Source of the DNA: Chitinophaga barathri
GTDB taxonomy: Bacteria > Bacteroidota > Bacteroidia > Chitinophagales > Chitinophagaceae
Direction of reading: 5' to 3'
Assembly: GCF_003807585.1 (NCBI RefSeq)
Contig: NZ_RMBX01000008.1
Location: 186,001 to 250,000, forward strand
DNA: 64,000 nucleotides
The notes beneath the pieces were generated by a model, which worked only from the letters and a program-made list of their open reading frames with translations, was not told the origin of the DNA and did not search any database. Shown piece by piece: positions 2,289 through 52,987 of the stretch; within the stretch, counting starts at the first letter, position 1; the number at the start of each line of letters is the position of its first letter. The translations under genes and the position numbers were made by a program.

Positions 2289-2306
2289 TCACCGAATTTT
2301 GCCAAC

Positions 2307-26736: not shown

Positions 26737-26784
26737 GTAATGATCAGTTAAGGGTATCGTAATCAATACGAAAGTAGGTTAAAA

Positions 26785-30995: not shown

Positions 30996-32369
30996 CTATT
31001 TCGTCTCTTCGAAGAGTTGTGATTTCGGTACTACTTTTACTTTTTTGCCATTCTCCAGCAGGCGTGAAATGGCCGTGTACGGGCCGCTGATCACTTCCTG
31101 CCCTTCCGTGATGCCGGACTTGACCTGGATGTTGTTATCGTCCTGGATGCCTATGGTCACTTCAGCCATTTTTACGGTATTGTCTTTTTGCAGCAGGAAC
31201 ACTACTTCCTTAAAGTCGCGCTTGGTGTCTTCGGCAGCGGGTGCCGCATTACCAGCCTGGGCCGGGCCCTTCTTTTCATCCTTTTTCGCCGTATCCGCCG
31301 GGTTGCGGGTGGTCACGGCATTGATCGGGATGGACAGCACCTGTTTTTCCGTGCGCGTCTGTATGTCCACGTTCGCACTCATGCCGGGCCTGAAGGGGAA
31401 CCTGCGCGGGAATTTCGGATCCATGAGGTCCGCGTAGGAAGAAGGCAGGATGCGGATGTGTACCACGTAGTTGGTTACCTGCTCCGCGGAGGAAGTGGAC
31501 GCTGTGGCTGTGGCCGCGCCCTTGCTGGAGCTGGCGATCTGGGTTACCAGGCCTTTGAATTTGCGGTTGGTATAAGCATCCACCTCAATGAGGGCGGAAT
31601 CGCCGAACTTAACTTTCGGAATGTCGTTTTCTCCCACGTCCACCTGCACTTCCATGGTAGCCATATCGGCAATGCGGAGCATTTCCGTACCGGTCATCTG
31701 CGCTGTACCTACCACGCGTTCGCCTTTTTTTACGGAAAGAAGGGAAACGGTTCCGCCCATCGGGGACGTGATGGTGGTCCTTCCAAGGTTTTTGTTGGCT
31801 TCCGTGAGGTTCGCCTGGGCGCTGGCAACGGCAAATTTACTGCTGTTGATGCGCTGGGTGGCGGCGTTGAAGTCCGCCAGGGCAGCTTTATAGGTTGCTT
31901 CCGCCGTTTCAAATTCGGAGCGGGAGATCACTTTTTGTTTGAGCAGCTCCGAGTTACGGTCAAATGCTGCCTTGGACTGGTCCAGGCGGGCTTTGAACGC
32001 GCTCAGGGCGGCGTCGCTGTTCGCCAGTTCCGCCTGGGACTGGCTTACGGATGCGGCGGCACGGTCCCTTGCGGAGCCGTAAATATCAGCGTATATGCGG
32101 GCCAGTACCTGTCCCTTTACCACGGAATCTCCTTCTTCCACCATCAGGTCGGTAATTTCCCCGGAGATGTCGGAGCTTACCTTCACCTCGATTTCCGGGA
32201 AGATCTTTCCGCTGGCAGAAACCACTTCGATGATGTCCCTTTTGGCTACTTTATCGACGGCCACTTTGATGCCCTCGTCTTTGCCGGAACCTTTTATAAA
32301 CAGAACAAGGATTATCAACAGGACAATGCCGCCGATAATCCAGAAAAGCAGTTTCTTTTTCTTCTTCAT
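30996..32369 (-). CDS. periplasmic adaptor subunit, HlyD/MacA type (distal copy)
   Basis: A 457-residue membrane-fusion protein with an N-terminal anchor (LLFWIIGGIVLLIILVLFI, about 7-25), a biotinyl-lipoyl-like half (VKVSSDISGEITDLMVEEGD), a long helical hairpin (about 105-205), then the second lipoyl half (TTITSPMGGTVSLLSVKKGE) and beta-barrel (FPFRPGMSANVDIQT). A Lys/Ala/Pro-rich insertion lies near residues 370-395. Such adaptors join an inner-membrane transporter to TolC. It lies 30 nt after the TolC-type gene and is the last gene of the cluster. It differs clearly from the proximal adaptor at 50008. Confidence 0.9.
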   Translation of the reverse strand: MKKKKKLLFWIIGGIVLLIILVLFIKGSGKDEGIKVAVDKVAKRDIIEVVSASGKIFPEIEVKVSSDISGEITDLMVEEGDSVVKGQVLARIYADIYGSARDRAAASVSQSQAELANSDAALSAFKARLDQSKAAFDRNSELLKQKVISRSEFETAEATYKAALADFNAATQRINSSKFAVASAQANLTEANKNLGRTTITSPMGGTVSLLSVKKGERVVGTAQMTGTEMLRIADMATMEVQVDVGENDIPKVKFGDSALIEVDAYTNRKFKGLVTQIASSSKGAATATASTSSAEQVTNYVVHIRILPSSYADLMDPKFPRRFPFRPGMSANVDIQTRTEKQVLSIPINAVTTRNPADTAKKDEKKGPAQAGNAAPAAEDTKRDFKEVVFLLQKDNTVKMAEVTIGIQDDNNIQVKSGITEGQEVISGPYTAISRLLENGKKVKVVPKSQLFEETK

Positions 32370-32399
32370 ATACGCTTTGTATTTCTGTGCCCCGGAATA

Positions 32400-33839
32400 C
32401 TATAGCGTTATTCGCTGGTCGCGATAGAATTCCAGTAATTTGATTTTAAATATATAGTCGTACAGGGCCGATACTTTATCTATCTGCGCTCTGAACAGGT
32501 TCGTCTGAGTTGTTACATATTCCACGGTGTTCAACAGGCCCACGTTAAAACGTTTGGTGGCAAAGTCGTACGCTTTCTGGGAGGCTCGTTCCGTAGTAAT
32601 GGCCGCCTGGTATTTCTGCAGGGCGCCTACCGCATCCGCATGCGCGGTGTAGATGTCCTGGCGGAGTTTCTGGCGGTTGATGTCCAGCGTGAGCAGTTTA
32701 TCCTGCTGGTCGATCTTCGCTCTTTCCACGTTTCCGCGCAGCTGCCATGCGTTCAGGATGGGTATGCTGAGGGTGATACCGACATTCTGACCGAAGTTAT
32801 TGCTGAACTGTTCACCGAAGGGCGTCAGCCTGCTCTGCCTGAAGGCGCCAGCTTTCAGGGAAGGATACAACGTACCGTTCACGTTCACAAAACCGGTGGT
32901 ATCTACATAAGGAATAGCCGGGCCGAACTGCTGATAATTGGAATTGGCATAATTGGTTCCCGCGCCGCCGCCAATGCTGAGGCTCGGGTACAAGGCCCCT
33001 TTTGCGGCTGCCAGGCTGCGGTTCGCCGCTTTTACCATCGCTTCGTCCGCTTTATACTGCGGTTGGTTGGCCAGCGCTGCGCTGAACACCATTTCAGGAG
33101 CGGTTTCGGAGAGGTTGAGCAGCGGCACCGCCTCAATTTCTTTAGGCAGCTCGGTATTAAAAGGAACCGCAAAATCGAGGTTCAGTAAAGCTTTCATGGT
33201 CAGCACCCTGATCACGGCGTTGTTTTCCGCGGTCACCAGTGTGGAACTATCCCTCGCCAGCTGAGCTTCCAGGTCCGCCTGGTTGCTTTCCGGCACGGAA
33301 CCCGCCGCCACAAGTTTTTTGGTATTGTCCAGCTGGGCGATACTCAGGTCCACCTGCGATTTGCTGATTTTCACCTGTTCATTGGCCAGTAATATCTGGA
33401 GGAAGGCATTGGCAACGTTCACGCCCATGTCATTACGGGCTTTTTCAAGCTGGTAATTGGCGGCATACACCTGGTATTTTGAGGCGGCAATGGTATTTTG
33501 TTTGGTGAACCAGCCAAAAAGATCCGCGTCGAAACTCATATTCAGGCCCGCATTGAAGAGGGTCTGGGTCACGAAGGTGTTGGTAGTAGGGTCAATAGAG
33601 CGGCCGAAACGGTAACCGGCGTTCGCGCCTGCGTTGACGGTAGGCAGCTGGGACATCCGGTTCTGCTTCAGGGTAAGCTCCTGGAGACGCCGCTGCAGCA
33701 CACTCTGCTGGAGGGTCAGGTTGTGGGAAAGCGCATAGTCCAGCGCACGCTGATAGCTCCAGTTATCCTGGGCTGCTACCGGGTTGGCAAACAAAACAAA
33801 AGCCAGTATCGATGCGATTGCAAGGGACTTTATTTTCAT
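32400..33839 (-). CDS. TolC-family outer membrane efflux protein
   Basis: 479 residues from ATG 33839 (MKIKSLAIASILAFVLFANPVAAQ, a clear signal peptide); the frame extends further upstream without support. It shows two OEP repeats of the TolC fold, such as SYQRALDYALSHNLTLQQSV, TVNAGANAGYRFGRS, LYPSLSIGGGAGTNYA, VGITLSIPILNAWQLRG and FNVGLLNTVEYVTTQTNLFR. It forms the outer-membrane duct of tripartite exporters. A gap of 148 nt separates it from the ATPase upstream, with a possible promoter in between, so TolC plus the distal adaptor could be a separate transcript. Confidence 0.93.
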   Translation of the reverse strand: MKIKSLAIASILAFVLFANPVAAQDNWSYQRALDYALSHNLTLQQSVLQRRLQELTLKQNRMSQLPTVNAGANAGYRFGRSIDPTTNTFVTQTLFNAGLNMSFDADLFGWFTKQNTIAASKYQVYAANYQLEKARNDMGVNVANAFLQILLANEQVKISKSQVDLSIAQLDNTKKLVAAGSVPESNQADLEAQLARDSSTLVTAENNAVIRVLTMKALLNLDFAVPFNTELPKEIEAVPLLNLSETAPEMVFSAALANQPQYKADEAMVKAANRSLAAAKGALYPSLSIGGGAGTNYANSNYQQFGPAIPYVDTTGFVNVNGTLYPSLKAGAFRQSRLTPFGEQFSNNFGQNVGITLSIPILNAWQLRGNVERAKIDQQDKLLTLDINRQKLRQDIYTAHADAVGALQKYQAAITTERASQKAYDFATKRFNVGLLNTVEYVTTQTNLFRAQIDKVSALYDYIFKIKLLEFYRDQRITL

Positions 33840-33846
33840 AGCCTGA

Positions 33847-33854
33847 CAAAAATA
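33847..33854 (-). promoter_or_regulatory. -7-type element before the TolC-type gene
   Basis: TATTTTTG on the minus strand matches TAnnTTTG and ends seven bases before the ATG at 33839. A CATCATATGATG palindrome lies further upstream at 33945-33956. Confidence 0.3.
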
Positions 33855-33987
33855 TATTAATTGAGTTGACACCATGCGGCCGTACTTGATAGATGGCAAA
33901 TTACTAGTAGGTATGGCTCCGGGCCACACGAATTTAAGGTAAAACATCATATGATGAGTTTTTAGCTTCCGGAAAATAATGAAGAGG

Positions 33988-34650
33988 TTACTTTACCCGG
34001 CCGTCCATAATTTCAATGACCTTATTCCCGTAACCGGCGTTAAGGTCCGAATGGGTTACCTGGACGATGGTGATGCCGTCTTTTTTATTCAGCTCTGCAA
34101 ACAGTTCCATGATGGATTTGGCCTGGTCGGAATGCAGGTTGCCGGTAGGCTCGTCCGCAAATATCACCGTCGGCTCAGCCACGATGGCCCGGGCTATGCC
34201 CACCAGCTGCTGCTGGCCGCCGGAAAGCTGGTTCGGGAACAGGTCCTTTTTGGCTACCATGTTAAAACGGTCAAGAATATCCGCAACACGGCTTTTACGC
34301 TCCGAGGAAGGCATGTTTTTATACAGAAGAGGTGTTTCGATATTTTCATACACCGTCAGCTCGTCTATCAGGTGATACGCCTGGAATACGAAGCCAATGG
34401 CGCCCCGGTGCAGCTGGGTCCGTTTTTTATCGTTCATTTTGTGGACCAGCTCCCCCTGGAAAAGGTATTCCCCGTCAGAAGGCTCTTCCAGCAACCCAAG
34501 GATGTGCAACAGGGTAGACTTCCCCGAACCGGAAGGGCCCATGATAGACACAAACTCCCCCTCGTGAATCACCAGGTTCACTTCCTTTAATATTTCATGT
34601 TTGCCAAACCCGACCGGGTAATGTTTTGAGATGTTGCGCAGTTGAATCAT
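33988..34650 (-). CDS. ABC transporter ATP-binding protein (LolD/MacB type) with altered signature and D-loop
   Basis: 220 residues from ATG 34650 (MIQLRNISKHYPVG). Walker A GPSGSGKST (38-46), Q-loop FVFQAYHLIDE, Walker B VIFADEPTGN and the H-loop H200 are intact. The signature is LSGGQQQLVGIARA (142-155), with Leu at 149 where Arg is nearly always found, and the D-loop reads NLHSD with His173 in place of Asp. The ATPase at 49282 has the usual residues at both sites. It directly follows the sixth permease gene (26 nt) and probably energises one or more of the permeases. Confidence 0.92.
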   Translation of the reverse strand: MIQLRNISKHYPVGFGKHEILKEVNLVIHEGEFVSIMGPSGSGKSTLLHILGLLEEPSDGEYLFQGELVHKMNDKKRTQLHRGAIGFVFQAYHLIDELTVYENIETPLLYKNMPSSERKSRVADILDRFNMVAKKDLFPNQLSGGQQQLVGIARAIVAEPTVIFADEPTGNLHSDQAKSIMELFAELNKKDGITIVQVTHSDLNAGYGNKVIEIMDGRVK

Positions 34651-34676
34651 GATATTAATGTAAAAAAATTTATTGA

Positions 34677-37094
34677 TTATTCTGAACGGAGCGACTTCAC
34701 AGGGTTCATCAGAGCGGCTCTTATGCTCTGGAAGCTCACCGTGGCCGCCGCTATAAACACCGCCACCAGCCCTGCCAGTACAAACACCCACCAGCTGATA
34801 TTTATCCGGTAAGCATACCCTTTCAGCCATTCGCTCATCACGTACCAGGCCACCGGTGTGGCTATCAGGATGGCCAGCGCCACCAGTTTCAGGAAATCCC
34901 TGGCAATAAGCCCGGCTATGCCCGCGGCGCTGGCGCCCAGCACTTTCCTGATGCCGATCTCCTTCGTACGGTGCCCGATAGTAAGCATCGCGATGGCAAA
35001 CAGGCCCATGCAGGAAATAATGATAGTCAGTACCGCCCCGCAGATAAAGATCTTCATCAGCGTGGATTCGAACTTGTATTGTTTTTCCGTGTTTTCGTTT
35101 ACAAATGATGCCAGATATGTCTGGCCCGGAGCGGCTTTTTTAAAGGCCGCTTCGATGCGGGACATGGAAGCGGGCAGGTTGCCGGGTTTTGTTTTCACAA
35201 AAATGTAAGCCGGCGGCTCGTCCTGTTGGTTCAGGTACATCGTGAGCGGTCCTATTTCCTCGTGCAGGGACTTAAAATTGTAATCCTTCACTACACCGTT
35301 TATATGATATTCCGGCCCTTCGTTATCCATCCTGAAACGGTAACCCACCGCGTCTTTCGCGCCTACAAGCTGTTTTGCCATTTTTTCATTGATCACCAGC
35401 CCGAAGGAATCAAGCCCCATCTTCGGGTCAAAGTCTTTGCCGCCGCGCAGTTTCAGGTCCATGGTCCGGATGTAGTCGTAGTCCACAGCCTGCCAGTGCG
35501 AGCTTATTTCTTTCCCCTCCAGTTCGAAGGTGATAATGGAAGTAGATTGACTGCCGTCTTTGCCCCGGCCGAGGTTATGGCCGGAAGCGGAAACGGCGAG
35601 AATGTCCGGCTGTTGTGCAAGTTCCGTTCTCAGCCGCGCAAGCAGCAGGTGACCATCCAGGTCTTTGCTCACGGGAATGCTCACCACCTCATGTGTATTA
35701 AATCCCAGCGGTTTGTCGCGCAGGTAGCTCATTTGCTGCCAGGCAATGATAGTCCCGCAGATCAGCAGGGAGGAAAAAACGAATTGTGTAACGATCAGCG
35801 TGTTGCGGAAATAATTGGTCCTTCCGGAAGAAACCTTCCCTTTCAGCACCAGCAGCGTATGCGTGCGGGACAATACCCATGCGGGATATCCGCCGGCCAG
35901 CGGGCTGATGATCAGCAGCGCGGCCAGTATACCCACCAGGAATTTCGGCTGCAGCAATATGCCAAAGGCATACACCGCTTTTGCAAAAAACATCGCGTTG
36001 TAAAACGGCAGCACAAAATATGTGATAGCAAGGCCCAGCACCAGCGATATCAGGAAAAGCACCAGGGCTTCGCCACAGAGCTGCAATACCAGTTGTATCC
36101 TTGCCGCGCCCAGCATTTTGCGCATACCCACTTCCTTGGCGCGGGTGAAAGCGCGTGCCAGCGTGAGGTTCAGGAAGTTGATACTCGCGATGAACAGCAG
36201 GAATGCCGCTATGAACAACAACATATACAGTATGGGCTTTTTTGCATCCTGCAGATTGCTGTTATTACTGAAATGTATCTCGCTTATCGGGGTAAGCCCC
36301 ATATGCTGTACGCCGCCGAATTTATCTTTCCGCGCACCCGCCTTTTTCATCCGCTCAATATCTTCGGTATAATGTTTTTCGAGAAAGGTTTTGCCCCTCC
36401 GCTCAATATCTTCCGGTTTTACACCGGGATTGAGCTGAACGAATATCTCCAGGCTGAAATTGCCCCAGTTCTCCCGGTCTTCCGGGAAGCTGGGATGATT
36501 TTCCAGCCGCAGCAGGGCATCGAAGCGGATGCTGGAATTATCCGGCACGTTTTTCATTACTGCACCCACGACATAACTTTTCCATTCATTTCCCACGCGG
36601 AGACGGATTGTTTTGCCCACAGGGTCCTGGTCTTTAAAAAAGATACCGGCCATTTTTTCTGTGATCTGCACATTATTCATCCCCAGTGCGCTGTTGCCGC
36701 TGACGGCGGGAAATGTGAACACATTCAGGAAAGAACTGTCTACAAATCGCAGGCCGATGCTCTGGGAAATCTCGCCTACGTTCATCACGGAAGCGTCGTT
36801 GGCAAACCGCACCACTTCTTTAATGCCGGGTATTTCCGCCTTCAGGGCAGGGCCCATCGGGTAACTCATGTTGGACTGCGATTCGGTTTTATCCGCATGA
36901 AAATCCTCCTTGTACACTTCGTAGAGATAATCCTTTTTCTCCTGGAAATCATTGAAGGAAAACTCCCTGTACACGGTAATGCACAACAGCAATGCGGCTG
37001 CAATAGCCACCGCCAGGCCTACGATATTCACAGCAGACACCTGTTTTGCTTTCCAGATGTTCCTCCACGCTATTTTGAGATAATTCCTGAACAT
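34677..37094 (-). CDS. ABC transporter permease, MacB/FtsX type (copy 6)
   Basis: An 805-residue permease built of two halves, each with one helix, a periplasmic MacB-type domain and three FtsX-type helices. TM1 is at about 20-42 (VSAVNIVGLAVAIAAALLLC), TM2-4 at about 285-410 and TM5 at about 432-453 (TLIVTQFVFSSLLICGTII). The C-terminal half has TKEIGIRKVLGASAAGIAGL and ends NPVKSLRSE. Closest in sequence to copy 3 (41868): both carry the GFN/GYN-xxx-VVSIPV and NxGxGxDG blocks. It shares a 14-nt junction with copy 5. Confidence 0.93.
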   Translation of the reverse strand: MFRNYLKIAWRNIWKAKQVSAVNIVGLAVAIAAALLLCITVYREFSFNDFQEKKDYLYEVYKEDFHADKTESQSNMSYPMGPALKAEIPGIKEVVRFANDASVMNVGEISQSIGLRFVDSSFLNVFTFPAVSGNSALGMNNVQITEKMAGIFFKDQDPVGKTIRLRVGNEWKSYVVGAVMKNVPDNSSIRFDALLRLENHPSFPEDRENWGNFSLEIFVQLNPGVKPEDIERRGKTFLEKHYTEDIERMKKAGARKDKFGGVQHMGLTPISEIHFSNNSNLQDAKKPILYMLLFIAAFLLFIASINFLNLTLARAFTRAKEVGMRKMLGAARIQLVLQLCGEALVLFLISLVLGLAITYFVLPFYNAMFFAKAVYAFGILLQPKFLVGILAALLIISPLAGGYPAWVLSRTHTLLVLKGKVSSGRTNYFRNTLIVTQFVFSSLLICGTIIAWQQMSYLRDKPLGFNTHEVVSIPVSKDLDGHLLLARLRTELAQQPDILAVSASGHNLGRGKDGSQSTSIITFELEGKEISSHWQAVDYDYIRTMDLKLRGGKDFDPKMGLDSFGLVINEKMAKQLVGAKDAVGYRFRMDNEGPEYHINGVVKDYNFKSLHEEIGPLTMYLNQQDEPPAYIFVKTKPGNLPASMSRIEAAFKKAAPGQTYLASFVNENTEKQYKFESTLMKIFICGAVLTIIISCMGLFAIAMLTIGHRTKEIGIRKVLGASAAGIAGLIARDFLKLVALAILIATPVAWYVMSEWLKGYAYRINISWWVFVLAGLVAVFIAAATVSFQSIRAALMNPVKSLRSE

Positions 37095-37108
37095 AACCTG
37101 TAATGTTT

Positions 37109-39499: not shown

Positions 39500-39502
39500 A
39501 GG

Positions 39503-41866: not shown

Positions 41867-41867
41867 A

Positions 41868-44288: not shown

Positions 44289-44300
44289 AGTCAGTCAGCG

Positions 44301-46712
44301 TTATTCCGAGCGCAGGGAGCGCACGGGGTTTAATAATGCAGCCTTTACAGACTGGAAACTGATAGTCAGGAAAGCAATCAGCAACGCCAGCAGGCCTGCC
44401 GCGGCGAAGGACCACCATGGAAAATCCACCCTGAACGGGAATTCCGCCAGCCATTTGTTCATTCCGAACCAGGCCAGCGGCGAGGAGATCAGGATGGATA
44501 TGGCTACCAGCTGCAGGAAATCTTTGGACAATAAGGCGGTGATGCTGCCCACTGATGCGCCCAGCACTTTACGGATGCCGATCTCTTTGGTGCGCTGCCT
44601 TGCCACCAGCATGGCCAGGCCAAACAGGCCCAGGCAGGCGATGATGATAGCGAGCCCCGCATAAGCCCCAAACAGGCTGCCGGAGCGCTGTTCAGCGCGG
44701 TATTCATTACCCAGTTCATCTTCCACAAAACGGTAGTTGAACGGGAAAGTGGGCATGAGCTTTTTCCATATCTGCTCTATCCGCGCCAGTTGCGCCTGCC
44801 TTTCGCCGGGCTCCAGGCGGATCGTGAGCATTCCCGCGGCGCCGTTGCGTATCATGGACACCATCGGTTCGATGGGCAGACGGAGGTTTTGCATGTTAAA
44901 GTCTTCCACTACACCTATCACCTGGCCTTTACGGGGCTTGGAGCCTCCGCGCCATTCTATCCTGCTGCCGATCACCGGTTCTTTCAGCTGGAGTTTGGCC
45001 ACGGCGGTTTTGTTGATCACAAAAGCGTCCAGCGAGTCGGAGGGGTACTTTTCGGAGAAATCCCTTCCAGCTACGAACTTCGCGCCGATATTGGTAAAGT
45101 AATTGAAATCCGCATTTACGATGATGGAGCTCACGCTTTCATCTTCGCGGGTGCCTTCCCTGCCTACGGGGTTATTGCTCACACTTTGCCCGCCCAACGG
45201 CATATTGGTATACGCCGTCTGTTTTACGAAAGGCAGCCTTGATAATTCGTTCTTAAACGGTTCCCTGTAAGGCGCTTGTTTACTGTTATTCAGGTATAGC
45301 GTCAGCAGGCCGTTTTTGTTATAACCCAGGTCTTTCTGCTGCATGTACCGCAACTGGGAATAGATCACCACCGTGGCGATGATCAGCGCAATAGCTATGG
45401 TAAACTGGGATACCACGAGTGTTTTTCGGAAAAGGGAACGATGGCCGGAAGACTTAAGGCCACCTTTTAATATTCTTACAGGCAGGAAGCTGGAAAGATA
45501 TAATGCGGGATAACTCCCGGCGAACAAACCTACTGCCACCGCTATCAGTAACAGTGTGGTAAACATCGGGATCTGACCCGTTCCGAAAAGCGCCATAGTT
45601 TTATCGGTCACGTAGTTGAACCCGGGCATCAGGATGGCAGCCAGCAGAATAGCCAGCACAAACGACATGATACATACCATCACGGATTCTACCAGGAACT
45701 GCATGATCAGCGCTTTGCGCTCCGCTCCCATCACTTTACGCAATCCCACTTCCATGGCGCGTTCGCTGGCCCTTGCAGTCACGAGGTTCATAAAGTTGAT
45801 GCAGGCGATCAGGATGATGAAAAAACCAATGCACCCGTAGATGTAAAGACGCGAAAGGTTTTCATGTGTACCCGTGTCTCCGTCAGGGTATAAATGGATG
45901 TCCGCCAGCGGCTGCAGGCGGTATTGGAACTGAGTTCCCAGATTTTTTGCCAGCGGGCCAACGTGTTTATCCGCAAACGCCTTCAGTTCTTTGTCCATAG
46001 CTGCAGGCGTAACACCGGGTGCCAGCTGCACGAAGGTCTGGTTTGAAGTGAACCCGAACCAGATGGTCTCCGGATCACGGCCGATCTTCGCATTGTTCTG
46101 CATATAGGTGGAGAAAGAAAACACCATGTCAAACTGAAGATCGCTATTGGCGGGTACATCCTTTGCAACACCGGTCACCATGCAGTCATAATCATCCTGC
46201 ACACGAATCATTTTACCGATAGGGCTTTCGTTTCCGAAAAATTTCTTTGCGGTCCGCTCAGATAGTACGGCTGTATAAGGTTCTTTCAGCACAGACGCCG
46301 CATTACCACTCAGCAACGGAAAGTCGAACAAACGGAAAAACCCTTCATCCGCAAATACCGTATTCTCCTGCCGGAACTTTTCATTGTTAACAGACACGAT
46401 CACCTCATTCGCCTGGTAAAAACGCAGGGCTTCTTTTACCCGGCTTAACTCACGCTTCAAAGTGGGTGCGGCGCCAAACTGGGAAATGCTCATCTGCCCC
46501 TCCCATCCGTTATTCTCCTTGATCATGCAATTGAGCCGGTATACGGATGGTGCGTTCGTATGAAAACTATTATAACTTAATTCGTCTTTGACGAAAAGCA
46601 CGATCAGGATACAACAGGCCATACCGATGGCAAGCCCTGCAATATTAATGGCAGTGATCCCTTTGTTGCGCATAAGGTGGCGCAGCGCCACTTTGATGTA
46701 ATTCCTGATCAT
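44301..46712 (-). CDS. ABC transporter permease, MacB/FtsX type (copy 2)
   Basis: An 803-residue permease, N terminus MIRNYIKVALRHLMRNKGIT, TM1 at about 20-42. First half contains AMEVGLRKVMGAERKALIMQ, TM5 is TLVVSQFTIAIALIIATVVI, and the second half has TKEIGIRKVLGASVGSITAL, ending NPVRSLRSE. The second periplasmic domain contains NMPLGGQSVSNNPVGREGT, not found in the sister copies. It is preceded by the 64-residue membrane protein gene (12 nt). Confidence 0.93.
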   Translation of the reverse strand: MIRNYIKVALRHLMRNKGITAINIAGLAIGMACCILIVLFVKDELSYNSFHTNAPSVYRLNCMIKENNGWEGQMSISQFGAAPTLKRELSRVKEALRFYQANEVIVSVNNEKFRQENTVFADEGFFRLFDFPLLSGNAASVLKEPYTAVLSERTAKKFFGNESPIGKMIRVQDDYDCMVTGVAKDVPANSDLQFDMVFSFSTYMQNNAKIGRDPETIWFGFTSNQTFVQLAPGVTPAAMDKELKAFADKHVGPLAKNLGTQFQYRLQPLADIHLYPDGDTGTHENLSRLYIYGCIGFFIILIACINFMNLVTARASERAMEVGLRKVMGAERKALIMQFLVESVMVCIMSFVLAILLAAILMPGFNYVTDKTMALFGTGQIPMFTTLLLIAVAVGLFAGSYPALYLSSFLPVRILKGGLKSSGHRSLFRKTLVVSQFTIAIALIIATVVIYSQLRYMQQKDLGYNKNGLLTLYLNNSKQAPYREPFKNELSRLPFVKQTAYTNMPLGGQSVSNNPVGREGTREDESVSSIIVNADFNYFTNIGAKFVAGRDFSEKYPSDSLDAFVINKTAVAKLQLKEPVIGSRIEWRGGSKPRKGQVIGVVEDFNMQNLRLPIEPMVSMIRNGAAGMLTIRLEPGERQAQLARIEQIWKKLMPTFPFNYRFVEDELGNEYRAEQRSGSLFGAYAGLAIIIACLGLFGLAMLVARQRTKEIGIRKVLGASVGSITALLSKDFLQLVAISILISSPLAWFGMNKWLAEFPFRVDFPWWSFAAAGLLALLIAFLTISFQSVKAALLNPVRSLRSE

Positions 46713-46724
46713 AATTCCGAACGG

Positions 46725-46919
46725 TTAAACTGATGTTTTCCTGCGGTACTGGTCTATCAGGTAAAGACCTGCTATCAGCACCATAAGAAAAGGGATGATC
46801 AAATACGGCATAAACGTCATCTGGTCATATCCGGATACAGAACCGGAGTGACCGGTGAATGTGCCGGTACTTAGCTGGAAATCCAGCACCTTGTTGATTA
46901 AACAATTCATCTTGTCCAT
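46725..46919 (-). CDS. small single-helix membrane protein inside the permease cluster
   Basis: 64 residues. The N-terminal ~35 are polar; residues about 37-57 (MPYLIIPFLMVLIAGLYLI) form one hydrophobic helix, followed by a basic tail DQYRRKTSV that predicts a cytoplasmic C terminus. I do not recognise a family. It fits exactly between copy 1 (2 nt) and copy 2 (12 nt) in the same direction, which supports a real gene. A role as a small accessory subunit of the transporter is inference only. Confidence 0.6.
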   Translation of the reverse strand: MDKMNCLINKVLDFQLSTGTFTGHSGSVSGYDQMTFMPYLIIPFLMVLIAGLYLIDQYRRKTSV

Positions 46920-46921
46920 AA

Positions 46922-49267
46922 CTACTCAGTTTTCAGGGTGCGCACAGGGTTTGCCAGCGCGGCTTTTACGGATTGGGTGCCGATGGTGACGATGGCCACC
47001 AATACAGCTGCCGCTCCTGCCACGAGGAAAACCCATATGGGTATATTGGTACGATATTCATAGCCCTGCAGCCATTGGTCCGTGGCGTACCAGCTAAGCG
47101 GAGTGGCCAGCAGGATGGCGATGAATACCAGTTTCAGAAAGTCTTTTGTTATAAGCCGGACGATGCCTGCAACGGAAGCGCCCAGCACTTTGCGGATGCC
47201 GATCTCTTTGGTGCGCTGCAGGATGGTGAAAGTTGCGAGACCGAACAATCCCAGGCACGACAGGAAAACAGCTACGCCCGCAAACCATGTGAACAGTTTG
47301 CCGGTGCGTGTCTCCTGGTCGTACAGCTGCATAAAAGTATCTTCCACAAACTCATGATCGAAGCGATATTCAGGATTATATTCTTTCCATATCTTCCCGA
47401 CGGCTGCTATGATGGCCGGTGTATTTTCTCCCGTGGTTTTCATATACAGTTTCCAGCTACTGGGCCTGTACCGCATGATAACCGACGGGATCTTGTCATG
47501 CATCGAGCCGATGTGAAAATCTTTCACCACACCGATGATCGTGCCGTCTACGTCCAGGAGTTTAAAACGTTTGCCGATAGGGTCTTTTAAGCCTGTTACT
47601 TTAACGGCTTCCTCGTTGAGGATGTAGCTGGTGGAATCGGCTTTACCCCCACGGAACATCCGGCCTTCCTTCATTTTCATTTCCATGGCGGGCATAAAGT
47701 TTTCGTCCACGCTGATGTGTTTGATGTTGAGGCTCATTTCCGGGGCTTTGCCTTCCCAGTCCGTATCGCTGGTGCTGTTGCCCAGAGCGGTGATATTTGC
47801 GTTGCCGAAAAATACCGCTTTCACGCCGGGGATCTTTCCCAGCCTGTCTTTCACAGCCTCTGGGTGGTCCTGCATGTTGCGCGCGGAAAAGGTCAGCAGG
47901 TTATCTTTATTGTAACCGAGCGGTTTGCTGTTGATATATTTCAGCTGCATACCTATGGCCAGTGTACAGCCTATCAGCACAATGGAAATAAAGAACTGCG
48001 CCACGACCAGCGTTTTCCTGAACATGCCGCCGCTCATGGCCGCTTTGCCTTTCAACGACTGGATGGGATTAAAACGCATGAGATGGAACGCGGGATAAAC
48101 CGCTGCCAGCAATAACATGACCACGCTGCTGATCAGTAATATCAGCAGTATCTGACCGCTTACTTCGTTAAAACCGGTGGTTTTACCGGTAAGCTCATTG
48201 TAGAACGGCAGCAGCAGCCACATCAGGAATACGGAAAGAATGACCGCAAGTACGAATACAATGGAAGACTCCGTCATGAACTGGCGGAAAAGCTGCCAGC
48301 GGTTCGCCCCGATCAGCTTGCGCACGCTGATCTCTACAGCCCGCTGATGTGCGCGGGCGGTAGCCAGGTTCACATAATTGATGCCGGCAATAAGCAATAT
48401 CACAATGGCAACGAGAAAAAAGATGCGTACTATTTTCATCAGCCCTTCTTCACCGGTGACCTCGTAAAGATGTACATCTCTCAGCGGCTGAATGGAGTAT
48501 CCGCGGCTCTGCGTGTTTTCGTTCGGGCTTCCTTTCACCCATTCTTCACCCAGCAGCTTATTGGTCTTTGCAATGTCCGGATTCGGCTGCATCAGCAGGT
48601 AAGTGGAAGCGTAAAAATTGCCCCAGTCGTCGTTCATGGATTTCCAATAACCGGACTGGTAATTGTCATTGCGCAATTTTATCGGCACCAGCATGTCGAA
48701 CCGGATGCTGGAATTGCGTGGCATGTCCGCAATGATGCCGCTTACGATGAACTGGAATTCCCGTTCTACCGTGATCACTTTTCCAAGAGGCTCTTCGTTA
48801 CCGAAATATTTTTTCGCGGTAGATTCCGTGAGTACGATGGAGGTATTGTTCGGGAAGGCGCTCCCTTTCAGGACAGGGAAATCGAATACGGTGAAGAAAG
48901 TCGTGTCTACATAAGCGACCTGCGTTTCATAAAAAGTTTTCCCGCCGCTTTCGAATTTGGACAGGTCCCAGGCCTGTGCGATGCGCACCATATCTGTCAC
49001 GCCGGGAACCGAACTTTTCGCGTGCGGGCCAATGGCTGCCTGTGTAGCCTCCCAGTTCTGCAATTTGGTGCCGCTCATGAATTGGCTGCTTACTTTGTAA
49101 ATATCTTTCCCTTTCGAATGAAAGGAGTCGAAACTCCGCTCGTCCTGCACCCAGCTAAGCAGCAGCGTACTGATAGCCAGGCCGATAGCCAGCCCCACAA
49201 CGATGATGAAGGCGTATAACTTCTGCGAGAAAAGCGTCCTGAATGCGACTTTAATATTACGAAACAT
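46922..49267 (-). CDS. ABC transporter permease, MacB/FtsX type (copy 1)
   Basis: A 781-residue permease, N terminus MFRNIKVAFRTLFSQKLYAF, slightly shorter than the sisters. First half contains AVEISVRKLIGANRWQLFRQ, TM5 TLVVAQFFISIVLIGCTLAI, second half TKEIGIRKVLGASVAGIVRL, ending NPVRTLKTE. It is the most diverged copy at its N terminus. It directly follows the proximal ATPase (14 nt), so this pair plus the adaptor at 50008 looks like the ancestral minimal module. Confidence 0.93.
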   Translation of the reverse strand: MFRNIKVAFRTLFSQKLYAFIIVVGLAIGLAISTLLLSWVQDERSFDSFHSKGKDIYKVSSQFMSGTKLQNWEATQAAIGPHAKSSVPGVTDMVRIAQAWDLSKFESGGKTFYETQVAYVDTTFFTVFDFPVLKGSAFPNNTSIVLTESTAKKYFGNEEPLGKVITVEREFQFIVSGIIADMPRNSSIRFDMLVPIKLRNDNYQSGYWKSMNDDWGNFYASTYLLMQPNPDIAKTNKLLGEEWVKGSPNENTQSRGYSIQPLRDVHLYEVTGEEGLMKIVRIFFLVAIVILLIAGINYVNLATARAHQRAVEISVRKLIGANRWQLFRQFMTESSIVFVLAVILSVFLMWLLLPFYNELTGKTTGFNEVSGQILLILLISSVVMLLLAAVYPAFHLMRFNPIQSLKGKAAMSGGMFRKTLVVAQFFISIVLIGCTLAIGMQLKYINSKPLGYNKDNLLTFSARNMQDHPEAVKDRLGKIPGVKAVFFGNANITALGNSTSDTDWEGKAPEMSLNIKHISVDENFMPAMEMKMKEGRMFRGGKADSTSYILNEEAVKVTGLKDPIGKRFKLLDVDGTIIGVVKDFHIGSMHDKIPSVIMRYRPSSWKLYMKTTGENTPAIIAAVGKIWKEYNPEYRFDHEFVEDTFMQLYDQETRTGKLFTWFAGVAVFLSCLGLFGLATFTILQRTKEIGIRKVLGASVAGIVRLITKDFLKLVFIAILLATPLSWYATDQWLQGYEYRTNIPIWVFLVAGAAAVLVAIVTIGTQSVKAALANPVRTLKTE

Positions 49268-49281
49268 GAAGCGGCGTTTAT

Positions 49282-49971
49282 TTATACGTGAAATTGTTCC
49301 TTGATGTTTTCAGTTACCACCTTACCGTCAAACAGGTTCACAATGCGGTGTGCAAAACCTGCGTCGTAGGGGGAGTGTGTCACCATGATGAGGGTGGTGC
49401 CGGCGTCGTTCAGTTCCTGGAGGAGTTTCATTACTTCTTCACCGTTGGTGGAATCCAGGTTACCGGTCGGTTCATCCGCGAGGATCAGCTTGGGTTTTGC
49501 CACTACTGCGCGGGCAATCGCCACACGCTGCTGCTGGCCACCGGAAAGCTGTTGCGGGAAGTGGTTGCGGCGGTGCATGATATTCATGCGCTCCAGCACT
49601 TCTTCCACTCTTTTTTTACGGTCAGCGGCGGGTACTTTCAGGTACAGGAGCGGCAGTTCCACGTTTTCGAAAACGGTCAGTTCGTCTATCAGGTTAAAGC
49701 TCTGGAATACGAAGCCGATAGCCCCCTTGCGCAACTGCGCGCGCTGGCGCTCGCTCATGCGGGCTACTTCCTTGTCCCAGAAATGATATTCGCCATGGCT
49801 GGGATTGTCCAGCAGGCCAAGGATATTCAGCAGGGTGGATTTACCACAGCCTGAAGGCCCCATGATGGCTACAAACTCACCATCCTGCACGTCCATGTTG
49901 ATGCCGTTGAGGGCCGTTGTTTCTACTTCTTCCGTAGTAAAGAGCTTTTGTAAGTTGACTGTTCTGATCAT
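49282..49971 (-). CDS. ABC transporter ATP-binding protein (LolD/MacB type, proximal)
   Basis: A 229-residue ATPase with intact motifs: Walker A GPSGCGKST (38-46), Q-loop FVFQSFNLIDE, signature LSGGQQQRVAIARA (142-155), Walker B LILADEPTGNLD and H-loop VTHS. This is the LolD/MacB/FtsE-type nucleotide-binding domain that pairs with FtsX-fold permeases and drives mechanotransmission rather than classical transport. Gene order is adaptor (36 nt), this ATPase, permease copy 1 (14 nt). Confidence 0.94.
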   Translation of the reverse strand: MIRTVNLQKLFTTEEVETTALNGINMDVQDGEFVAIMGPSGCGKSTLLNILGLLDNPSHGEYHFWDKEVARMSERQRAQLRKGAIGFVFQSFNLIDELTVFENVELPLLYLKVPAADRKKRVEEVLERMNIMHRRNHFPQQLSGGQQQRVAIARAVVAKPKLILADEPTGNLDSTNGEEVMKLLQELNDAGTTLIMVTHSPYDAGFAHRIVNLFDGKVVTENIKEQFHV

Positions 49972-50007
49972 TGTTGTAGTTTGTTAGTGATTGGATGGGT
50001 GAGCGGG

Positions 50008-51255
50008 TTAAAATTCTAATACTTCCTTATCCCCGAAGTTCTCATAAGTTGAGGTGATTACCTGGTCGCCTACATTGAGGCCTTCCAGCACTTCGAAGTA
50101 TACAGGGTTTTTCCGGCCCAGGGATATTTTACGTTTGATGGCTCGGCTGCCGCCTTTTTCCACTACATATACCCAGTTGCCGCCGGTATCAGAGAAGAAC
50201 CCGCCCGCAGGCAAAAGTAATGCTTCGGAAGATTTCCCGAGCTCGAGGCGGATAGGAGAGGATTGTCCGCGGCGGATGCCCTCTGGTGCGGCTTTCACAA
50301 AGTTCATATCTACTTCAAAACGGCCGTTCTTTACTTCGGGGTACACTTTCGTGATCTCCATTTCATTGGCGGTGCCGTTGAATTCAAAACTGGCCTTCAG
50401 GCCGGCGAATACCCTGTTCACATAATGTTCGTCCACTTCGGCGCGCATCTTGAACCCGTTCATATCGTCTATCTGGCCAATGTTCTGCCCGGCCTGGATG
50501 CTGGTACCCACTTCCACGTTGATGGAAGAAAGCTGCCCGTCCACCGGGGCGCGTACCACCAGGTTGCTCAGGTTGTCCTTCATCAGCGTCAGGTTCCGCT
50601 GGGTACGGGCAATGGTGCCTTCCAGCTGGATGATCTGGGTACGGGCATTGTCCAGCTGGTATTCCTGGCTCTGCACTTCGATCTGCCGCTGGCGTACCAG
50701 GCGTTCGTATTCCCTTTTGGTTTTCAGGTACTCCTGTTCGGCCACCACTTTGTCTTTCCACAGTTTATTATTCCTGTCGTAAAGGTCTTTGGCCTGGTCC
50801 ACCTGGTAATCAAGGTCGCTGAGCGTCTTTTCCAGGGCAAAACGGTCCTGTTTCAGGCGGAGGCGGGTATTCTGAAGTTCGTTGATAAGACGGTACATTT
50901 CCGTTTCACGGTTTACGAAGTCCATCATGAGCCGTTGGTTTTCAAGGGCAAGGATGGAATCACCCCTTTTTACCATACTGCCGCCTTCCAGGAATTTGCG
51001 GGCTACATAACCGCCTTCGATGGCGTCCAGGCGGATGGTTTTCAGGGGGTGCACCACCGCCGTCACGGCGATGTATTCGTCAAAGGAACCTTTGGTAACG
51101 GGAGAAATAGTGATCTTGTCCTTTTCCACGTTCAGCTTGCTCCGTTTGTCCGCGAAAATAAAGCTCCACAGCACGAGCAGCACCAGGGCGCCACCGCCTC
51201 CGAACAGGAATATCCTTTGTTTGTTCCAGAATTTCTTTTTGAGTTGTCTGTCCAT
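50008..51255 (-). CDS. periplasmic adaptor subunit, HlyD type (proximal copy)
   Basis: 415 residues from ATG 51255 (MDRQLKKKFWNKQRIFLF); the frame is open for 129 codons upstream through the divergent regulatory region but that part is not protein-like. Anchor helix at about 14-34, lipoyl half with RLDAIEGGYVARKFLEGGSM, long coiled-coil hairpin at about 105-225, second lipoyl half RAPVDGQLSSINVEVGTSIQ, then beta-barrel and membrane-proximal domains. It heads the exporter cluster. Confidence 0.9.
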   Translation of the reverse strand: MDRQLKKKFWNKQRIFLFGGGGALVLLVLWSFIFADKRSKLNVEKDKITISPVTKGSFDEYIAVTAVVHPLKTIRLDAIEGGYVARKFLEGGSMVKRGDSILALENQRLMMDFVNRETEMYRLINELQNTRLRLKQDRFALEKTLSDLDYQVDQAKDLYDRNNKLWKDKVVAEQEYLKTKREYERLVRQRQIEVQSQEYQLDNARTQIIQLEGTIARTQRNLTLMKDNLSNLVVRAPVDGQLSSINVEVGTSIQAGQNIGQIDDMNGFKMRAEVDEHYVNRVFAGLKASFEFNGTANEMEITKVYPEVKNGRFEVDMNFVKAAPEGIRRGQSSPIRLELGKSSEALLLPAGGFFSDTGGNWVYVVEKGGSRAIKRKISLGRKNPVYFEVLEGLNVGDQVITSTYENFGDKEVLEF

Positions 51256-51279: not shown

Positions 51280-51295
51280 GTCAATCCATGTGCCA
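51280..51295 (-). promoter_or_regulatory. possible sigma-54-type promoter of the exporter cluster
   Basis: On the minus strand TGGCACATGGATTGAC matches TGGCACG-N4-TTGCA at the -24 block (6 of 7), with the invariant -12 GC reading GA. Just upstream, TTGGCAC is repeated 10 bases away. The predicted start lies about 12 nt ahead of the adaptor ATG. Supported mainly by the NtrC-type regulator encoded divergently. Confidence 0.35.
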
Positions 51296-51347
51296 AGCCG
51301 TGCCAATTCGCCAAAAGCCCCACCATGGCGGACCGTAAGCCAGTAGC

Positions 51348-51396
51348 CCTGTCCGCCCCTGTTCCAAAGCGGACAGGCGGTGTCCGAATACGGACA
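51348..51396. promoter_or_regulatory. array of TGTCCG/CGGACA half-sites in the divergent region
   Basis: Two inverted repeats: CCTGTCCGC (51348-51356) with GCGGACAGG (51369-51377), 12-nt spacer; and TGTCCG-AATA-CGGACA (51381-51396). The four half-sites start at 51350, 51370, 51381 and 51391, intervals of 20, 11 and 10 bases, close to whole helical turns. Placement 55-115 bp upstream of the adaptor promoter candidate fits an enhancer for the response regulator at 51641. Confidence 0.6.
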
Positions 51397-51640: not shown

Positions 51641-52987
51641 ATGAGTACCCAGCAAGGAAAAATTCTGATCGTAGACGATGATGTAGATGTATTACGGGCA
51701 GCGCGCCTGCTGCTGAAACGCCATTTTGCACAGGTGGATTTCGAAAAAAATCCGCAAAAGATCCCCTACCTGGTCAGCAATTTTGAATATGACGTGATCC
51801 TGCTGGATATGAACTTCACCCGCGACCTCAGCAGCGGCAAGGAAGGTTTTGAATGGCTGGACCGTATTCTTGATATCAATCCCAAAGCCACTGTCGTGCT
51901 CTTCACCGCCTACGGCGATGTGGAAATGGCCGTGCGCGCCATCAAAGCGGGCGCGGTGGATTTTGTGCTGAAACCCTGGGAAAACGATAAACTGCTCGCT
52001 ACCCTGCAGACAGCCGTACAAACCCACCAGTCTAAACAGGAAAAGAAAGCCGGCGGCGCCACCCTGCATACGGATAATGTATTGATCGGGGACAGCCCCG
52101 CCATGCAGGAAGTGATGGAAACCGTATCGCGCGTGGCCGGAACGGATGCGAACATCCTCATCCTCGGCGAAAACGGCACTGGTAAAGACCTGCTCGCCCG
52201 GCATATCCATTCCCTGAGCCACCGCCGCGAAAAATCATTCGTGAGCGTGGACCTCGGCGCACTCAGCGAAACGCTTTTCGAAAGCGAACTGTTCGGTCAC
52301 GTCAAAGGCGCCTTCACCGATGCCCGCGAAGACCGCAGCGGCCGTTTTGAAGAAGCGAACGGCGGCTCCATTTTCCTGGACGAGATCGGCAACATCTCCA
52401 TTCCCTTCCAGGCCAAACTGCTCACCGTACTGCAAAACAGGTCCGTTACCCGCGTGGGCTCCAACAAAGCGCAGAACGTGGACGTGCGCCTGATCTGCGC
52501 AACAAACCGGAACATCAACCAGATGGCTGCCCAGCAGCTGTTCCGCCAGGACTTGCTGTACCGGGTGAACACCATCGAAATACAACTCCCCCCGCTGCGG
52601 GAAAGACGCGAAGACATCGTGCCGCTGGCCGAATATTTCCTGGGTCTTTACCGCAAAAAATATAACCGCCCCGTGGCATTCCTCCATGAAACGCTGATCG
52701 CACAGCTGGAGAAATACGACTGGCCGGGAAACATCCGCGAGCTGCAGCACGCCATCGAAAGAGCCGTGATCCTCTGCCAGGGCAAAACCCTCATGCCCAA
52801 AGATGTATTTGTAAAAACGAACACCGCCACCGAATCGCTGGACACCGGGTTCAACCTCGAGGAAATGGAGCGCAACATGATTGCCCAGGCTTTAAAAAAA
52901 TGCAATGGAAATATCACGGACGCTGCAAAGGAGCTGGGTTTGAGCCGCGCCGCCCTGTACAGGCGCATGGAAAAATATAATCTCTGA
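51641..52987 (+). CDS. NtrC-family response regulator
   Basis: 448 residues from ATG 51641 (MSTQQGKILIVDDDVDV). Receiver domain at 5-125 with acidic D12-D14, phospho-acceptor D56 (LLDMNF), and the T and K switch residues in LFTAYGD and VLKPWEN. AAA+ domain with Walker A GENGTGKD (176-183), Walker B SIFLDEIG, and at 223-228 GAFTDA in place of the sigma-54-contacting GAFTGA. C-terminal Fis-type helix-turn-helix NITDAAKELGLSRAALYRRM. It is the partner of the kinase that starts on its last base, and is divergent from the exporter cluster, its likely target. Confidence 0.93.
   Translation: MSTQQGKILIVDDDVDVLRAARLLLKRHFAQVDFEKNPQKIPYLVSNFEYDVILLDMNFTRDLSSGKEGFEWLDRILDINPKATVVLFTAYGDVEMAVRAIKAGAVDFVLKPWENDKLLATLQTAVQTHQSKQEKKAGGATLHTDNVLIGDSPAMQEVMETVSRVAGTDANILILGENGTGKDLLARHIHSLSHRREKSFVSVDLGALSETLFESELFGHVKGAFTDAREDRSGRFEEANGGSIFLDEIGNISIPFQAKLLTVLQNRSVTRVGSNKAQNVDVRLICATNRNINQMAAQQLFRQDLLYRVNTIEIQLPPLRERREDIVPLAEYFLGLYRKKYNRPVAFLHETLIAQLEKYDWPGNIRELQHAIERAVILCQGKTLMPKDVFVKTNTATESLDTGFNLEEMERNMIAQALKKCNGNITDAAKELGLSRAALYRRMEKYNL

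Follow-up and report, generated by a model that had tools for sequence, protein, structure and literature searches.

A probable modular ABC exporter in Chitinophaga, with a conserved chassis, a variable permease slot and dispersed double permeases that share its predicted operator

The window, as we call the stretch of 64,000 nucleotides (nt) analysed here (C27:186001-250000 of the 6.86-Mb genome, G000, of a soil bacterium, with Chitinophaga as its closest named relatives), contains an operon for two periplasmic adaptors (MFP1 and MFP2), two ATPases (ATP1 and ATP2), a TolC-type outer-membrane factor (OMF) and six tandem double permeases of the MacB/FtsX type (P1 to P6). This operon is probably the core of a modular ATP-binding cassette (ABC) exporter, in which a fixed chassis is combined with interchangeable double permeases; those encoded elsewhere on the chromosome would be powered in trans, and a response regulator (RR) would switch the whole set. 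Sequence comparison shows a conserved chassis, a slot for 0 to 6 permeases, dispersed permeases with no related ATPase alongside, co-occurrence of adaptor and permeases throughout the family, and an operator common to the chassis and most dispersed genes. Energisation of the dispersed permeases by the chassis ATPases would fit the co-occurrence, the dispersed genes and the shared operator alike, and the substrates may be envelope-active peptides or small molecules.

Conserved chassis and variable permease slot

The set of six double MacB/FtsX permeases, two ATPases, two adaptors and a TolC had been recognised in a preliminary description of this DNA, and is confirmed by open reading frames (ORFs), Pfam matches and intergenic gaps. 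The order of genes on the minus strand, in the direction of transcription, is MFP1, ATP1, P1, a 64-aa ORF, P2 to P6, ATP2, the TolC-type protein and MFP2, and the gaps between them are, respectively, 36, 14, 2, 12, 12, 1, 3, 14, 26, 148 and 30 nt. The adaptors (HlyD_D23/RND_mfp) and the OEP protein score above the Pfam cut-offs, and the equivalog cut-offs of MacA and TolC are not reached. P4 would be 799 aa long only if an upstream TTG start were used, and is 787 aa long from its ATG. The 64-aa ORF has relatives of 71 and 68 aa, likewise beside ATP1, in G020 and Chitinophaga cymbidii. The unit extends to position 54321 when a divergent RR and a histidine kinase (HK), which the preliminary description did not mention, are included; the operator region at 51280-51396 was also absent from it. 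The RR adjoins MFP1 in the mapped loci of the genus.

For comparison, 35 other Chitinophaga genomes, out of a larger number in the genus, were searched or fetched. All 35 have an MFP1 orthologue, with 68-88 % identity, and the order HK-RR/MFP1-ATP1-slot-ATP2-OMF-MFP2 is kept in 34 of the 34 loci with full context; the chassis locus of G005 is cut by its contig. What varies is the number of permeases in the slot. Among 35 loci, the window included, there are none in 4, one in 4, two in 1, three in 7, four in 8, five in 5 and six in 5, and the remaining locus, in G035, has one broken permease set (307+523 aa). These counts include one truncated copy each in G002 (436 aa) and G033 (524 aa). In four genomes (G006, G009, G025 and G027) one slot permease is located between MFP1 and ATP1.

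The empty slots, in G015, G016, G021 and G022, leave only 123-166 nt between ATP1 and ATP2. Assembly gaps were considered as their origin and rejected: the four joined loci are contiguous and contain no N, and no obvious permease remnant is seen in the ATP1-ATP2 gap. Because the four genomes resemble each other (MFP1 identity 0.905 within the group), the empty slot may go back to a single loss event. Permease frames in pieces are also found in two metagenome-assembled genomes (MAGs; L120 and L123) with MFP1 at 68-69 %, where decay or assembly error is possible.

The chassis proteins themselves are conserved to different extents, with mean pairwise identities of 0.934 for ATP1, 0.850 for ATP2, 0.809 for the RR, 0.756 for MFP1, 0.739 for the HK, 0.716 for MFP2 and 0.578 for OMF. 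ATP1 of the empty-slot genomes is as conserved as the others (0.935 to the rest). Such a rank of ATP1 would be expected of a hub with many partners; ATPases are generally well conserved, too.

The preliminary description had suggested a phylogeny of the six permeases. The six positions are not kept as a set, since slot size runs from 0 to 6 across the genus. What is kept are single copies, whose orthologues occupy the slot of close relatives and follow one another there in the same relative order (P4 in six genomes and P6 in five, this one included); this is not the unordered scatter that the description had set against its proposal. Slot and dispersed copies (see below) were also compared in a FastTree phylogeny of 265 permeases: 113 from the slot, 72 dispersed, and 80 from loci L125-L176 counted as slot, one of which (L157) is labelled outside and is in fact Chitinophaga; groups were defined by an ad hoc depth cut. 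At least 24 switches between slot and dispersed positions are required on this tree, compared to a mean of 63 and a minimum of 57 in 200 shuffles, so that the two pools are largely distinct and yet exchange members.

Dispersed double permeases and their co-occurrence with the chassis

Twelve further double permeases, not part of the preliminary description, are encoded away from the cluster in the genome of the window. One of them, at C22:417868-420279, carries an in-frame stop and is the only interrupted copy there; another (L078:4733, minus strand) has a longer frame, of 933 aa, and no detectable operator. Six genomes (G000, G015, G016, G020, G021 and G022) were surveyed for the neighbourhoods of such genes. 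Together they have 72 permeases outside the slot with an ORF of at least 680 aa, 9-16 per genome, and 71 of the 72 show no stop. The genomes with empty slots are no exception: G015, G016, G021 and G022 contain 13, 12, 10 and 9 full-length dispersed copies, respectively, and G015 has one split copy in addition. A count in G011, G024 and G001 gives 13, 11 and 7. Many dispersed copies have orthologues in other species.

A blastp screen of the flanks of the 72 permeases (mostly 4-5 kb, and 1-2.4 kb at contig ends; L198 and L222 hold two permeases each) found no adaptor or TolC relative and no intact ATPase. The sole ATPase relative is a fragment about 4 kb off, at the edge of the locus and three ORFs away, and relatives of response regulators or kinases occur near four of the 72. 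The notion of interchangeable permeases, one of two put forward in the preliminary description, is thus supported more widely than proposed there, by a slot of 0 to 6 members and by 9-16 copies with no ATPase alongside elsewhere in each of the six genomes.

Co-occurrence was scored in 294 genomes of the family, with profile A1 for MFP1 (E <= 1e-30) and profile A2 for the double permease (E <= 1e-80), at most three candidates per genome being taken in one scan and six in the other. MFP1 is found in 138 genomes and the double permease in 140; both are found in 137, MFP1 alone in one (G107), the permease alone in three (G134, G182 and G327) and neither in 153, which gives a phi of 0.97. G327 is 67 % complete, and the draft assemblies of G134 and G182 consist of about 460 and 300 contigs, respectively. 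At the A2 threshold, therefore, 153 of the 156 genomes without MFP1 have no double permease, in the slot or dispersed. Linkage in one locus contributes to this co-occurrence.

A shared operator upstream of chassis and dispersed permeases

A palindrome recurs in the upstream regions, as does a GG element close to the start codon; they represent an operator with a palindrome similar to TGTCCG-n4-CGGACA that is phased to a sigma-54 promoter. In the degenerate form TGTnYn-n4/5-nRRACA, the palindrome is present upstream of 61 of the 72 dispersed permeases. In the controls it is found in 8 of 325 regions upstream of other ORFs from these loci, and in 31 of 1440 mononucleotide shuffles. It is also found in 27 of 36 chassis upstream regions, where two of the matches, at 17 nt from the start, are probably fortuitous. 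All nine dispersed permeases of G022 have this upstream activating sequence (UAS), and at least nine of the twelve in the genome of the window share the chassis operator.

It is the UAS, and not the sigma-54 score, that discriminates the upstream regions of dispersed permeases. The sigma-54 consensus score alone separates poorly (14 or more in 59 of 72 dispersed and in 226 of 327 control upstreams), and a loose DNA pattern, CGGACA-N40-70-TGGCA, run over the whole genome, stayed at chance level, with 84+91 matches versus 88+87 in the reversed control.

The distance between UAS and -24 element could be assigned in 51 of the 72 cases, from candidate pairs 35-95 nt apart, the one closest to 50 nt being taken; it is 51-54 nt in 36 of them, 42-44 nt in 8, 63-64 nt in 3 and 73-75 nt in 4. 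These classes correspond to steps of about one helical turn. In the window, the nearer palindrome is 64 nt from the promoter.

The RR has a receiver, a sigma-54 AAA+ domain and a Fis-type helix-turn-helix (HTH), and palindromic UAS are located upstream of the -24/-12 element, all of which is characteristic of NtrC-type regulation. Judging by adjacency and conservation, the chassis RR is the protein that would bind the UAS. The predicted co-regulation of chassis and dispersed permeases is well supported by the upstream sequences.

These counts bear on the possibility that only local tandem duplication took place, i.e., that the operon is an expanded efflux operon of the MacAB type and the dispersed copies are its decaying spill-over. 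Broken slot copies in G002, G033 and G035, the split dispersed copy in G015, the copy with an in-frame stop in the genome of the window and the largely separate pools in the tree would all agree with this reading. Decaying genes would not be expected, however, to be free of stops in 71 of 72 cases, to have orthologues in other species, or to keep the operator at 61 of 72 and an assigned promoter spacing at 51, and we consider spill-over highly improbable.

The operator profile in other genomes and families

A sequence profile of the operator, R1, was derived from 33 upstream regions of G015, G016, G020, G021 and G022. The motif by which these regions were chosen had also been seen before genes of G000, so that the genome of the window was held out of training and not of discovery. 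Unseen beforehand were the dispersed permeases of G011, G024, G001, G113 and both Cytophagales genomes; the chassis loci of these genomes, except that of G113, had been seen before the test. E-values are rough, and 150 of the 1082-3804 first-look candidates per genome were scored, so the numbers of matches below are lower bounds.

In G000, G011, G024 and G001, 26 of the 32 R1 matches with E <= 0.0025 precede double permeases. Two others are the two strands of the chassis operator of G001, two precede the adaptor of a second exporter, one precedes a GNAT acetyltransferase and one an intergenic RNA candidate. Counted by gene, at E <= 0.02, a match is found at 9 of 12 dispersed permeases in G000, 10 of 13 in G011, 4 of 11 in G024 and 5 of 7 in G001. 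The chassis operator of the window itself has a genome-wide E of 0.025. In G113, which belongs to another genus and has 44 double permeases, the 23 matches at E <= 0.01 comprise 20 double permeases, one chassis and two other sites. At the same threshold, 8 of 19 matches in Spirosoma telluris (G372) are no more than 1 kb upstream of a permease among the 46 of 82 permease matches listed for it, and one is at the chassis. In Cytophagaceae ECT2AJA-110-C (G373, CP030886.1), a 4.2-Mb genome with 61 double permeases and a chassis with no permeases beside it, 2 of 3 matches are upstream of permeases among the 59 of 61 listed. Five long-frame copies in Spirosoma have R1 matches about 740-810 nt upstream, as if a gene intervened, and in G373 the open frame exceeds 857 aa for 38 of the 59 listed double permeases.

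Chassis loci outside the genus were sampled as 41 of the 52 loci L125-L176, together with the window. R1 matches directly before MFP1 in 32 of the 41 at E <= 0.01 and in 36 at E <= 1, and the positive loci span Emticicia, Spirosoma, Roseivirga and a Calditrichaceae MAG. Within the genus, chassis loci amounting to 684,520 bases give 33 matches with E <= 0.1, every one of them in the region between MFP1 and RR, and 476,034 neighbouring bases give one match. A profile learned on dispersed permeases therefore marks chassis promoters, in other families too.

The second exporter, at L307:3256-11705 (G000:C11:225-234 kb; also L305 and L306), has the operator upstream of its adaptor, and consists of this adaptor, an ATPase with 54-57 % identity to ATP1, two half-size MacB permeases, an RR of its own and an adjacent HK. 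In G022, its permease and its ATPase of 54-57 % were not detected (its RR was not searched for), yet all nine dispersed permeases of that genome carry the UAS.

Two further sites deserve mention. The GNAT acetyltransferase of G001 (L296:5668-6321, minus strand) has a strong R1 operator, with E of 1.2e-5, and is possibly an extra member of the regulon. The RNA candidate, of about 110 nt, is in a convergent intergenic region (L298:6013-6135, minus strand, i.e., about 324012-324134 of G000:C22), and combines a UAS/sigma-54 promoter, a perfect intrinsic terminator and a conserved core, GTTAGCGAAATT; relatives are found in L297, L313 and L311. No shared ORF was seen in it, and Rfam gave nothing beyond one chance match. 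R1 matches accompany it in G000, G011, G031 and, weakly, G020, and none were found in L310, L314 and L315; a DNA match to it is present in 9 of 60 genomes of the genus, and is long in five of them.

Several observations weigh against a single regulon built around one chassis. Coverage by R1 is incomplete, with 28 of 43 dispersed permeases in four genomes and only 4 of 11 in G024, and the chassis operator is detected in the window and in 24 of 35 genus loci. Of the 19 matches (E <= 0.01) in Spirosoma telluris, 10 fall at neither listed permeases nor the chassis, and only 4 of the 59 listed permeases of G373 have a listed match. Spacing pairs were picked nearest to 50 nt, and orthologous genes are not independent. 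The NtrC-type RR of the second exporter, 42 % identical to the chassis RR, could compete for its role; because that exporter carries the same operator and such an RR, the assignment of the regulator is not unique. On the side of energy supply, a LolD-like ATPase, about 44 % identical to ATP1, was matched in four of four scanned genomes and could serve the dispersed permeases.

The last point leads to the alternative that chassis and dispersed permeases are co-regulated and separately powered, i.e., that the slot copies use ATP1/ATP2 and the dispersed ones another ATPase, such as the LolD-like one. No permease relative was detected alongside the latter in two loci (in G000 and G022), and in G000 there are half-size permeases (L090, L092 and L093), likewise without an ATPase alongside, so that dispersed pairing may occur there anyway. 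However, 153 of the 294 family genomes lack adaptor and double permeases together, and permeases without the adaptor occur in only three, whereas LolD would be expected in all 153; moreover, ATP1 shows the highest conservation of all chassis parts, also where the slot is empty. Separate powering appears unlikely on this evidence.

Architecture of the permeases, ATPases and kinase

Each of P1 to P6 contains two MacB_PCD and two FtsX stretches (Pfam, above the gathering cut-off in 6/6). The common block T(K/R)EIGIRK(V/A)LGA and the NP-(V/I)-(K/R)-(S/T)-L-(K/R)-(S/T)-E end, noted in the preliminary description, are present in all six. Its statement that copies 3 and 6 are closest to each other stands in part: P3 is nearest to P6, with 38 % identity versus 31-33 % for the others, identities having been computed to P6 only.

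A coupling motif, E-h-G-h-R-K, is present in both halves of slot and dispersed permeases. Among 113 slot, 72 dispersed and 80 further sequences, E is conserved in 99-100 % and R in 92-100 % in both halves; the lysine is found in the first half in 100 % of slot, 100 % of dispersed and 94 % of further sequences, and in the second half in 100 %, 94 % and 99 %, respectively. The lysine is replaced by R or M in two half-size permeases of the same genome.

The AlphaFold model of P6 (pLDDT 81, pTM 0.72) has two periplasmic domains and eight long helices, of a length to span the membrane (residues 17-45, 286-317, 332-369, 383-410, 428-460, 665-708, 723-757 and 768-795). Foldseek ranks YbbP (9ge6) first, as the best full-length match, with E of 6.7e-20 and a TM-score of only 0.43, followed by a Porphyromonas permease domain (3is6), MacB and LolC/E. 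In the accessible part of its description, YbbP has ten transmembrane helices and binds two YbbA through two coupling helices, with a 2:1 YbbA:YbbP stoichiometry (PMC12646458). By this analogy, the unit probably consists of one double permease with two ATPases. That P6 has exactly the topology of YbbP was rejected, its model having eight helices versus ten.

Such a unit bears on the second proposal of the preliminary description, hetero-oligomers, which we considered in the form of a dedicated exporter, a fixed machine of six parts whose permeases would jointly handle one substrate class. The tight operon, with 1-14 nt between the permeases, would suit it. A slot that varies from 0 to 6 in the genus would not, and every copy is a duplicated permease by itself, with a pair of coupling motifs and, in P6, a fold resembling that of YbbP, for which the part of the source at hand gives the 2:1 complex (PMC12646458). 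Hetero-oligomers are largely refuted by this and have a very low probability.

The two ATPases differ by constant signatures, GNLDS and LSGGQQQR in 36 of 36 ATP1 sequences, and GNLHS and LSGGQQQL in 35 of 35 ATP2 sequences. ATP2 as a dead subunit is not supported: Walker A, Walker B, LSGGQ and the H-loop are intact, and only the D-loop and one residue after the signature differ. Heterodimerisation of ATP1 and ATP2 is a guess. A universal ATP1-ATP2 heterodimer was considered and is not supported, since 16 of 80 named loci, all outside the genus, have no ATP2 orthologue; these loci have the arrangement MFP1-ATP1-OMF, and no permease alongside either.

The HK of the window has hydrophobic stretches at 3-27 and 23-50, a hydropathy profile that fits two transmembrane helices and a very short loop, which we take to be the layout of the intramembrane-sensing type. 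This layout is known from kinases that detect their signal within the membrane or by way of a transporter, and the action of BceAB on BceS is a precedent for the latter. The dispersed permeases might then not be transporters, but report to the kinase as receptors or flux sensors, the chassis being the effector pump. The near-absence of a loop in the HK, as in transporter-sensing kinases, speaks for this, as do BceA among the sequence matches of the ATPases and BceB among the fold matches of the permease. Coupling motifs kept in both permease halves are, on the contrary, expected of ATPase-driven proteins, and the 61 copies of one genome would be a large number for a single kinase; a receptor role is quite improbable.

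A proposed shared chassis for many permeases

The modular exporter that we favour would operate as follows. The cluster would be the base of a type VII ABC exporter with a fixed chassis of ATP1 (plus ATP2 in Chitinophaga), two adaptors and a TolC. Double permeases of about 800 aa would be exchangeable modules that face the substrate, and each would form a self-contained pseudo-dimer and engage two ATPase subunits. Some of them would occupy the chassis slot, and others, dispersed on the chromosome, would be energised in trans by the same chassis. The HK may sense envelope stress, upon which the phosphorylated RR would bind the TGTCCG-n4-CGGACA-like palindromes and sigma-54 polymerase would transcribe the chassis together with most of the dispersed permeases. 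The permeases would then compete for, or exchange on, the shared machine of ATPase, adaptor and TolC.

A broader claim, that 'orphan' double permeases in general are a plug-in repertoire for one universal chassis, connected across the genome by one kinase-regulator pair that acts through a helically phased sigma-54 enhancer, perhaps with a heterodimer of ATP1 and D-loop-altered ATP2 in Chitinophaga, seems to us evenly balanced between true and false. Its scope would be wide, with 7-16 dispersed copies in nine Chitinophaga genomes, 61 double permeases in G373 and an enhancer that ranges from Bacteroidota to a Calditrichaceae MAG. If true, it would make the system an export counterpart of importers with a shared energiser (energy-coupling factor, or ECF, type). 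In some environmental Bacteroidota, duplicated MacB-type permeases are present by the dozen and, as far as the accessible text indicates, are annotated as functionally uncharacterised orphans (PMC11573002); the present analysis points to a likely machine with which they pair and to a likely regulator. If the pairing is true, a single engine can be shared by many substrate modules in exporters, as in some importers, and the repertoire for export or self-protection could widen by a single gene with a ready-made promoter.

Features of the window

Coordinates are collected in Table 1. Two genes near the system, for a protein of the beta-lactamase family (55055-56674, plus strand) and a DsbH-like (DUF255) thioredoxin protein (24691-26766, minus strand), are unrelated to it as far as seen.

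Table 1. Genes and predicted promoter elements of the exporter locus, in positions of the window.
Feature	Position	Strand	Remarks
HK, histidine kinase	52987..54321	+	Pfam; two N-terminal hydrophobic helices by hydropathy, few residues between
RR, NtrC-type response regulator	51641..52987	+	Pfam (receiver, sigma-54 AAA+, Fis HTH); divergent from operon
UAS 1, perfect palindrome TGTCCGTATTCGGACA (minus strand)	51381..51396	-	125 nt upstream of MFP1 ATG
UAS 2, TGTCCGCTTTGGAACA	51360..51375	-	104 nt upstream of MFP1 ATG
Sigma-54-like -24/-12 element TGGCACATGGATTGAC	51280..51295	-	24 nt upstream of MFP1 ATG
MFP1, periplasmic adaptor, 415 aa	50008..51255	-	Best NCBIfam match DarC, under cut-off
ATP1, MacB/LolD/DarD-type ATPase, 229 aa	49282..49971	-	Most conserved chassis part
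P1, permease, 781 aa	46922..49267	-	Double MacB_PCD/FtsX
Small ORF, 64 aa	46725..46919	-	Between P1 and P2; one C-terminal hydrophobic stretch
P2, permease, 803 aa	44301..46712	-	
P3, permease, 806 aa	41868..44288	-	
P4, permease, 787 aa	39503..41866	-	Length from ATG
P5, permease, 796 aa	37109..39499	-	
P6, permease, 805 aa	34677..37094	-	Slot member adjoining ATP2
ATP2, second ATPase, 220 aa	33988..34650	-	
OMF, TolC-type outer-membrane factor, 479 aa	32400..33839	-	
MFP2, second periplasmic adaptor, 457 aa	30996..32369	-	

Comparison with known systems

By its domains, as predicted from sequence, the system is an ordinary type VII ABC. It resembles MacAB-TolC in its MacB_PCD and FtsX permease, HlyD/RND-type adaptors and TolC-type channel. 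Unlike there, the ATPases (229 and 220 aa) are separate and not fused to a half-size permease, the permease is duplicated within one chain, and there are 0-6 permeases per operon, with most permease genes elsewhere, as counted in the genomes surveyed.

DarBCD is the ABC-type transporter of the darobactin cluster, according to the available part of one report (PMC9055067). MFP1 has DarC as its best NCBIfam match and both ATPases have DarD, and P1, P2 and P6 also match DarB; the scores are, however, under the cut-offs (207 of 450 bits for DarC, 284 and 237 of 375 for DarD, and 133-146 of 700 for DarB). No biosynthetic genes are seen beside the chassis, in contrast to the darobactin cluster, which also has one DarB.

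The acidobacterial duplicated orphan permease (ADOP) owes its name to a permease gene without its own ATPase. ADOP (TIGR03434) is the best NCBIfam match of P1, P2 and P6, the three of six permeases that were scanned, and covers their full length, with 296, 324 and 298 bits, respectively, versus a cut-off of 622.3. The orphan state is shared with ADOP by the 72 dispersed copies, within the fetched flanks, and not by the six slot copies. Two Dyadobacter genomes have 28 and 33 annotated ADOP copies in the accessible text of one study (PMC11573002). The present system differs in that its permeases can be linked to a likely partner chassis and to a shared operator.

In Bacteroidia, COG0577 permeases were reported in 2025 to be over-represented among the targets predicted for sigma-54 (PMC12316311), and the accessible part of that report describes no chassis, operator sequence or ATPase pairing. 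In the open-licence PMC literature we found no description of the shared chassis, the operator or the pairing of permeases with the chassis.

YbbAP-TesA of E. coli likewise has a duplicated permease with two periplasmic domains, and YbbP is the closest full-length fold match of P6. It differs in its ten helices, with an extra linking pair, versus eight in the P6 model; here, furthermore, there are adaptors and a TolC, no TesA, and many permeases.

ECF group II importers have one ATPase module for several separately encoded permeases. One ATPase module would likewise serve several separately encoded permeases here. MceG, the ATPase shared by Mce1 and Mce4, appears to do so in what is accessible of an account of Mce importers (PMC9947336). 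Those systems, however, are importers of other folds, whereas the proteins described here would be exporters, with a predicted sigma-54 operator in common.

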